DNA of 37,718 nt from Candidatus Hodarchaeaceae archaeon. GTDB lineage: Archaea > Hadarchaeota > Hadarchaeia > Hadarchaeales > Hadarchaeaceae. The position numbers and the translations under genes are program-made. Shown piece by piece: positions 1 to 20,903 of this stretch (position 1 is the stretch's first letter; each line of letters starts with the position of its first letter). The notes beneath the pieces are model-generated. The model saw only the letters and a program-made list of their open reading frames with translations. It made no database searches and was not told the origin of the DNA. The stretch lies in contig JASEGJ010000009.1 of the NCBI GenBank assembly GCA_030018135.1, positions 1 to 37,718 on the forward strand. The letters are read 5' to 3'.

Positions 1-80
1 GAGGAAGTATCTCAAGAACTATTTTACGGCGAAAATTAGGTGATATGACTTAAAAGGGGTAATGGCGCCGGGGAGAGGAT

Positions 81-107
81 TATCGGTCAACGATTTCTCG
101 TCAACTC
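81..107 (-). other. tRNA-Asn T-loop intron (27 nt, non-canonical)
   Basis: The T loop should read TTCGAAT but is broken after TTCGA by 27 nt. The insert folds into a hairpin of eight continuous pairs (GUUGACGA with UCGUUGAC, two of them G-U) closed by a GAAA tetraloop. Exon UCG can pair with intron CGA to make a short central helix, giving a relaxed bulge-helix-bulge. T-stem pairing resumes exactly after the insert, so this is an intron and not decay. Confidence 0.85.
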
Positions 108-128
108 TCGAACCTCTGACCGCCCGGT

Positions 129-188
129 TGCCGTATGCGAACACGTCGTCCCGCTTTTTGAGGTTCGTTCTTCATTCATGCTCGCGTT
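129..188 (-). other. tRNA-Asn anticodon-loop intron (60 nt)
   Basis: This 60-nt insert sits between positions 37 and 38, the standard archaeal intron site. A bulge-helix-bulge can be drawn. Exon CUGU pairs with intron ACGG as the 4-bp central helix, with bulges UA^A and CA^A and the anticodon stem as outer helix. An inner intron helix forms around CGCGA/UUCGC. The boundary could shift by one or two A residues because of an A run. Confidence 0.85.
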
Positions 189-250
189 TAACAGCCGGGC
201 ACTCTACCTACTGAGCTACCCCGGCACCATGGTATCCTCTGAAGGGAAAC

Positions 251-18605: not shown

Positions 18606-20903
18606 CTATGTTTTGAGGCGGTCACCGATCAGGCAGAAGTGCGCCAGCGCCGCCTCGAGCTGAATGCGCTCGTTTGCGCCTTCGGTCAACCTGAAGTCGA
18701 ACTCGCCAACTTTGTCGATGAGTTTGATTTTTACCTGCTCCGGCAGGTCGAGGTTGAATATCTCGCGGTGGATCTGGTCGAGGATATCCTGGCCGGAGAG
18801 CCCCTTGTCGATCAGCATTTCGACGAGCCTGTTGCGCGCCTCCTCAAACTTTCCGACCAAGGCAAGCTGCAGCATTTCCCTGACCTCCTCCGGTCGCGCC
18901 AGGGCGCTGACCTCGTAGATCGCCTTTTCGTCTATCTTCCTTTTTATGGCTGCAGCCGCCTGCAGGATGTTCGTGGCGCGCCGCATATCGCCCTCCGAAA
19001 CATAGGTGATGGCTTTGATGCCGTCGTCCGTAAGCGTGAGTTTCTCCGCGCGGGCGATTCGCCTCAAATATTGGGCGATGTCCTTTTCGGCTAACCTCCT
19101 GAACCTGAAGATCGCGCAGCGCGATTGGATGGGCTCGATGATCCGGCTGGAGTAATTGCAGTCCAGGACAAATCTGCAGGTATGGGTATACATCTCCATC
19201 GTCCTGCGCAACGCGTGCTGCGCATCCGGGGTTAAGGCATCGCTCTCGTCCAACAAAACTATCTTGTAGGGGACGTCCGCGATGGGCCTAGTCCTAGCGT
19301 AGTCCTTCACCTTCGTGCGGATGGTGTCTATCCCACGCTCGTCGCTATTGTGCAAAAGGATCGGGGTGGTACCCCCGAAAAACATCTCCGCGCCGGGTAC
19401 CGAAACATCGTAAACATATCCATCATAGTTTTCAACCACCACTTCCTTGACCAAAACTACGGAAAGATCTGAGTCTATGAGCCCCTTCACCCTGTCGTAC
19501 AGCTCCGATACCTTCTTTCCGCTCGCCGCCCATTTTTCGATGAGTTCCTTGGCGCGATGTTTTGATATCCTCTTGGCGCCGGAATAGAGCGAGTGCCTCA
19601 AAAAATATTTATGTCGAACCCCCAGCCTTTCCGCCAGATTCTTCATCAAGCTCGCAGGCAAGAATTCCGTTTTTAAATACGAATATGAGGGCATCTTCCA
19701 CACCAACCTAGCCTCGCCATCGAAGCAAGATGTATCAAGGCCGCTCATCCTCCCCAACCAAGCGATGTCGATGAGATTTTCTTTCGAGCGAGAGGAATAT
19801 CTTATGAATTCGCCCCATCTCCCGCATGCGTCGCCCATGTACCCCCTTAAGAAAGCTCTCCGGGCATCTGGGCAGGCGGAGTAAATGAAGGAGGGAACTC
19901 TCTTGGCCGCGGCGTTTTTAAGTTTTGAACCATCGTAAAAATGCTCTTGAAAGAACTTTGCAAGTTGAGTATTCATAATCCTGTATTGTACTGCGCTCAT
20001 GCTCCCCGCTTTGAAGCCCGACGGTGCAACTTTGGCTTTTCCCTCTAAGCCAAATTTTTCCTCAAAGATTTTTCCAACTTTTTTTAATACATCAATCTCG
20101 CTTGGATACGAGAGCGTGAAGATTACTTGCCCGCTGGTCTCGTTGCGCTCTAGACATGCACACCCCTCGGCTAGGTATAAGCCAAAAAGCCATGCTAGCT
20201 CTTGATCCATCCTTTGATTGAGCAACACCGATTTTATCTTAGGGTTTTTTACCATGCCGCTGTGAAGCTCATTACACAATTTCGGCGAAATTTTCTTCAA
20301 ATTTAGAATTTGATTTTTCCCCTCGAGTTCTCCCTTAAACGTTACAAGAAGGTCACCTTTTTTTAACTCGCTCGCCGACTTCCTTTTAAGCGATCCGAAG
20401 TCGTCAATGACAATAACCGAATGGTCCATGCTCGTCCTTACCCAACCTCCCTCGTACCTTACCCGCACTACTTTGTCGACCTTGTGCCTCGAGATGACGC
20501 CGACCGGCAAGAAGCTCGCTCTGCGGTTCCCGTCAACTGAGAGCACCTCAAGGTCATCGGCTCGGGCATATTCTTGCAAATCATCCACGAAATATTCCTT
20601 GGCGAGCTCGGCGAAGTTCGTCCTCCTTATCGCTCCATTCCTTCTAACGATGATAGGGGTTTCCGGCGTGACGCTCGCGTTTAACTCTAAGAAGTTCTGG
20701 CGCCAGCCCTCGCCGAAGAGCTCTCGGGCTATGCAGAGCGCCGCCGTGGTCTTCCCGCTCCCCGGCGGCCCAGCGAACAACAGGTGGGGCAGGGATTTCT
20801 TAGCAACGAAGCTTTGAAGCCTGCTGACGACCTCGTCCTGCCCGATGATCTCCGAAAGCTCCTTGGGACGATACCTTTCGACCCAGATCTCCTCGGCGAC
20901 CAA
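18606..20903 (-). CDS. rfcS: replication factor C small subunit, intein-containing
   Basis: AAA+ clamp-loader subunit that loads PCNA onto DNA. The exteins total 322 residues, the normal RfcS length. The N-extein (1-76) has [16 protein letters not shown] and Walker [11 protein letters not shown] (44-53). The C-extein has [15 protein letters not shown], Walker B LLDESDAL, the SRC motif [12 protein letters not shown] and the C-terminal collar. A 443-residue intein splits LNA|SDERG. The start is TTG with GGAGGTG seven bases upstream, three bases after a BlaI-like regulator gene on the same strand. Splicing is required for function. Confidence 0.97.
19347..20675 (-). mobile_element. RfcS intein with LAGLIDADG homing endonuclease
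   Basis: This 443-residue in-frame insertion begins at Ser ([14 protein letters not shown]) and ends [15 protein letters not shown]...PILLHN, followed by extein Ser+1. The N block, the SMDHSVIV B block, the F and G blocks and the terminal His-Asn are intact, so splicing looks competent. Two LAGLIDADG motifs occur at about 162-171 ([10 protein letters not shown]) and 275-284 ([10 protein letters not shown]), each with an acidic residue. The coding is visibly more AT-rich than the exteins, which fits a mobile origin. The site, before SDERGID, is a known RfcS intein position. Confidence 0.95.

Follow-up and report, generated by a model that had tools for sequence, protein, structure and literature searches.

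Introns at 37/38 and 59/60 of a tRNA-Asn gene in Hadarchaeota, with a single detected α-type splicing endonuclease

We describe a hadarchaeal tRNA-Asn gene that is interrupted both in the anticodon loop and in the T loop. The locus is very probably a functional single-copy gene, the transcript of which is matured by excising two BHB introns, and this judgement extends jointly to the full explanation developed below. The T-loop insert lies at 59/60, and the only splicing endonuclease detected is of the α type. The genome carries a heavy load of other introns outside 37/38, for which the enzyme is a harder question.

Results

The tRNA-Asn gene and its two introns

The window, meaning the whole analysed stretch of 37,718 nucleotides, holds the gene near its first position. 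The features are all on the minus strand.

63-225, minus strand: pre-tRNA-Asn(GUU) gene, with position 1 at 225, G73 at 66 and the encoded CCA at 65-63
190-192, minus strand: anticodon GUU, positions 34-36 at 192, 191 and 190, read from the sequence
129-188, minus strand: anticodon-loop intron of 60 nt at 37/38, BHB with central helix C32U33G34U35/ACGG
160-175, minus strand: conserved core AUGAAGAACGAACCUC of the 37/38 intron, its start box-C-like
107-117, minus strand: exonic T-stem 5′ strand AGAGG (49-53) and T-loop U54 to G59
80-106, minus strand: T-loop intron of 27 nt at 59/60, an 8-bp hairpin with a GAAA loop
74-78, minus strand: T-stem 3′ strand CCUCU (61-65), half of the T-loop BHB outer helix
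253-258, minus strand: TATA-like TTTATA upstream of the gene, by inspection only

When 129-188 and 80-106 are both removed, a 76-nt tRNA-Asn with a complete cloverleaf results. Its acceptor, anticodon and T stems are perfect, all arms are intact, the discriminator is G73 and the CCA is gene-encoded. The initial annotation had proposed a tRNA-Asn with these two introns and intact arms after their removal, and both the parse and the homologues agree with it.

The locus gives 0 genes with ARAGORN and 0 matches with Rfam at the gathering threshold, and RF00005 reaches at best E = 7.3 in a search of its own genome. Because these tools miss the gene and ARAGORN, when permitted introns, parsed several others wrongly, an intron-tolerant parser was written for this analysis. 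An uninterrupted second tRNA-Asn, with this locus silent, would according to the initial annotation speak against its reading. No second tRNA-Asn was found, uninterrupted or otherwise, in this genome of 1.1 Mb, the 92.9% completeness of which bounds this negative and that on the β subunit below for this one genome.

The gene's neighbour encodes topoisomerase VI-A, 78-88% identical to those of Hadarchaeota (Hadesarchaea). Elsewhere in the window, a 765-aa ORF (18606-20903, minus strand) resembles, on inspection, a small subunit of replication factor C that contains an intein-like insertion. A viral-contig scan gave no match.

Register of the T-loop intron

The insert does split the T loop as first annotated, but its site is 59/60 rather than the proposed 58/59, according to both the BHB pairing and the uninterrupted homologues. 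The register 58/59 gives 1/4 central and 0/4 inner pairs. The register 59/60 gives 3/4 central, 3/3 outer and 4/4 inner pairs with a contiguous inner helix of 8 bp, and it is the only one with BHB geometry. Such central and inner pairing arises in 3e-5 of intron shuffles. Uninterrupted tRNA-Asn genes of 17 Hadarchaeota read TTCGAG/T across the junction (TTCGAG/C in one), hence G59 is exonic.

Measured against a BHB of two 3-nt bulges and a 4-bp helix, the T-loop intron has both bulges (AG/A and AA/U, the slash marking the cut), both flanking helices and 3/4 central pairs. The central helix is UUCG/CGAU, where U54-G57 face CGAU with a U54-U mismatch. The 37/38 intron has 4/4 central pairs and the bulges UA/A and CA/A.

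The T-loop intron across Hadarchaeota

The 59/60 intron is present in 7/24 Hadarchaeota tRNA-Asn genes, this genome included, with lengths of 24-31 nt, and is absent at the exact junction in the other 17. The annotated 8-bp GAAA hairpin is sustained by its covariation across the seven species. In their alignment 93.2% of the cells are paired, compared with no more than 56% after sliding of the partner, and the 8 double-changed cells are reached by 0/500 shuffles. In other species tRNA-Asn has introns at 8/9 or about 22/23, and some of the tRNA-Asn genes have three introns.

The same site is used in other tRNAs. In this genome (G000), tRNA-Cys(GCA) (L055, C42:22156-22238, minus strand) has a 16-nt intron at 59/60 and a 13-nt one at 37/38. 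Further 59/60 introns are found in tRNA-His of G026 and initiator tRNA-Met of G001, in surveys that parsed long or odd tRNA matches only. These three have 4/4 central helices and the T stem as the outer helix. Thus T-loop introns were found in four tRNAs, and all are at 59/60.

The central helix of the tRNA-Asn T-loop intron is 4/4 in one homologue, G005, and consists of 3 bp and the U54 mismatch in the other six. In four of these six, the drawn BHB form is less stable than the nearest-neighbour minimum by about 1-3 kcal/mol; the G006 and G013 drawings end the hairpin at a mismatch, so their energies are not comparable with the four fully drawn. These six mismatched helices and the energies above the minimum count against our explanation.

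Two other accounts of the locus fare worse. The 27 nt might be kept in the tRNA as an extended T loop, as the stability of the hairpin would allow. This is very improbable, as the insert would break the T loop, the docking partner of the D loop, is missing from 17 homologues at the exact junction, and keeps its BHB features in seven species and its site in three other tRNAs. Even less credible is a decayed pseudogene or an assembly error. The failure of the standard tRNA finders speaks for it, but no other tRNA-Asn was found in the genome, its arms are perfect after intron removal, and the intron recurs at its site in seven separate genomes.

Equivalence of 59/60 and 37/38

Excision of the two introns can be understood by comparing the two loops. 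A 5-bp stem and a 7-nt loop make up the T arm as well as the anticodon arm, and from the sequences we infer that 59/60 would match 37/38 exactly in its geometry. The first four loop nucleotides (32-35 or 54-57) would pair with the intron 3′ end as the central helix, nucleotides 5-6 and the first intron nucleotide would make the 5′ bulge, and the cut would follow nucleotide 6 of 7. The nearly invariant T-loop UUCR would then contribute the exonic strand of the central helix, so that in principle any tRNA could host a 59/60 intron. This equivalence was not found stated in the open-access literature examined. It would explain why T-loop introns recur at 59/60 with no change of enzyme.

Since its near-canonical BHB geometry is kept, a 59/60 intron would by itself need no broad-specificity enzyme. 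The initial annotation had taken the T-loop intron to imply one, and this step does not follow.

The conserved core of the 37/38 intron

The 37/38 intron is found in 24/24 Hadarchaeota tRNA-Asn genes parsed. Its core has the consensus RAUGAAGARCGARCCUC ... NNGA (loci L090-L115) and is closed by a stem that covaries, with double changes in 6/7 pairs. The CGARCCUC part, here CGAACCUC, and T-arm nucleotides 50-57 of the same tRNA-Asn are complementary. At the position of box C (RUGAUGA) nearly all have AUGAAGA and G017 has AUGAUGA; at that of box D, G021 has CUGA and the others NNGA. By its motifs the core resembles a box C/D RNA.

The intron was considered as a guide for Cm56. No guide is needed for it, because the T-arm C56 methylase Trm56 is encoded in all the high-quality genomes.

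The splicing endonuclease and the ligase

The check for endA paralogues that had been proposed returned one EndA gene per genome in 23/28 Hadarchaeota genomes, the 11 high-quality ones all among them. The protein is α-type and about 180 aa long (179 aa here), has the N- and C-terminal domains and the catalytic Y/H/K, and aligns nearly end to end with Methanocaldococcus jannaschii α (1A79). From its size and domain content it is predicted to form an α4 homotetramer. The Crenarchaea-specific loop (CSL) or an ASL insertion, which would lie beside the active site, is absent, with a 9-residue gap relative to A. pernix in 23/23 EndA sequences. The loop at the CSL position reads GKPLSGG[KR] in nearly all the aligned hadarchaeal sequences. 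It differs in G001, the member with few detected introns, of which all five parsed are at 37/38 or 59/60.

Among the 23 genomes, a profile of four β sequences matches only the α gene at E<=5. Besides the α gene, the Sen15 model finds only one 29-aa open frame at E = 0.17. As a positive control, these models pick up known β fragments from M. kandleri, N. equitans and Pyrobaculum, with Sen15 doing so for Pyrobaculum. The ε2 type is excluded by the EndA length of 179 aa. An αβ or ε enzyme, as first suggested for this organism, is thus not supported. Weak second PF01974 matches occur in G012, G013 and G015; the one in G012 was rejected as EndA, since its 359-aa ORF looks primase-type on inspection.

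The gene of the RtcB ligase is present. Its match is interrupted inside an open frame of 874 aa (G000 C11:68229-70859, minus strand), which suggests an intein in the tRNA ligase gene.

The sole detected EndA would cut at both 37/38 and 59/60, and RtcB would ligate the exons. Observed directly are the sequence, the register, the covariation, the presence/absence polymorphism, the one EndA gene and the RtcB gene; the α4 assembly, the cleavage and the ligation are inferred.

The non-canonical intron load

Of the 28 introns catalogued in the genome, 17 lie outside 37/38. D arms hold nine of these and T loops two, positions 9/10 and 29/30 have one each, and the other four are in the anticodon arm or close to it. 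The counts come from one parser that rewards BHB geometry at boundaries and from a few manual readings, and they leave out L031 (Asp) and L050-L053 as uncertain. Non-canonical introns thus number at least 17. L021 and L022 are counted at 37/38 although their central helices are 0/4 in the parse; both are probably misread, and L022 may be a two-intron tRNA-Thr.

The central helix is a perfect 4 bp in nearly all catalogued introns. Yet 8/9 D-arm introns have no contiguous 3-bp outer helix, and about ten introns of the genome, mostly in the D arm, are relaxed BHB introns in lacking it. These relaxed D-arm introns would be a better argument for a broad enzyme than the T-loop intron.

Two other genes were also noted. 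tRNA-Pro(UGG) (L029, 1501-1620, minus strand) appears to have two anticodon-loop introns, of 28 nt at 33/34 and 17 nt at 37/38, and the second BHB forms only once the first intron is removed. L052 is probably a tRNA-Trp in which a very long intron sequence follows the anticodon, as in those archaea whose tRNA-Trp intron contains a C/D RNA.

Discussion

Relaxed BHB introns are said to need (αβ)2 or ε2 enzymes (PMC6379350, PMC4090602, PMC4033280). According to reviews, only these two types handle relaxed non-canonical introns efficiently, and the enzyme type drove the intron spread. A relaxed-intron load under an α-only, loop-less EndA, as the sequences present it, conflicts with this published co-evolution rule. 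The rule is not absolute, as multiple-intron tRNAs were known earlier from two euryarchaea, M. kandleri and M. thermautotrophicus (PMC4033280). Introns that are only canonical BHB at 37/38 are a correlate of the α4 type and not a structural criterion of it; the hadarchaeal genome, with its at least 17 non-canonical introns, departs from this correlate.

The intron load can be read as the work of a broad α4, of an undetected β, or of a narrow enzyme for which relaxed motifs suffice. A broad-specificity (αβ)2 or ε2 endonuclease with a β too diverged for detection would suit the many non-canonical introns, about ten of which (mostly D-arm) have no proper outer helix, as this is the pattern of (αβ)2 organisms (PMC4090602, PMC4033280). 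It is nevertheless unlikely in view of the single EndA gene in 11/11 high-quality genomes, the β profile and Sen15 searches that yield essentially nothing but the α gene, the 179-aa length unfit for ε and the missing CSL.

We favour the broad α4 among the three readings, at about an even chance. Equally balanced is the specific claim that the homomeric, loop-less α-type EndA of Hadarchaeota excises relaxed-BHB introns from D arms and further atypical sites. The broad specificity would perhaps be conferred by the conserved GKPLSGG[KR] loop. If the claim is true, broad specificity arose without a β subunit, CSL or ASL. The α-only, loop-less EndA together with the heavy non-canonical load makes the endonuclease-intron rule testable in Hadarchaeota.

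Comparison with known systems

No literature on Hadarchaeota tRNA introns or splicing endonuclease was found in the open-access literature. T-loop 59/60 introns as such are already known in Crenarchaeota, and 59/60 is listed among the non-canonical archaeal tRNA intron positions (PMC4090602). The known ones share the position and the BHB logic with those here and also co-occur with a 37/38 intron. They are described as typical of Crenarchaeota and Nanoarchaeota, which have (αβ)2 enzymes, whereas ours are in Hadarchaeota with an α-only EndA. The permuted tRNA genes of Cyanidioschyzon merolae (type IV) and Thermofilum pendens have their junction at the same 59/60 place (PMC3978253), but their halves are in reversed order, while tRNA-Asn here has an ordinary cis intron.

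A box C/D guide RNA is known from the tRNA-Trp intron (PMC4090602), which is likewise a 37/38 intron of some 60 nt closed by a stem. The two are alike in the C- and D-box-like motifs and in the complementarity to tRNA. Here, by contrast, a tRNA-Asn is the host, its intron has degenerate boxes, and it is the T arm to which the complementarity is conserved.

The α4 EndA of M. jannaschii (1A79) is like the hadarchaeal one in its 179 aa, the N- and C-terminal domains, the Y/H/K and the lack of the CSL. Its specificity is reported as narrow (PMC6379350), whereas the hadarchaeal genomes have many introns outside 37/38, and its loop at the CSL position differs from GKPLSGG[KR]. The best-scoring PDB match to the hadarchaeal EndA is the (αβ)2 EndA of Methanopyrus kandleri (5X89), which is also euryarchaeal and without CSL and ASL (PMC6379350). 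The M. kandleri enzyme has a β subunit, however, and none was found in Hadarchaeota.
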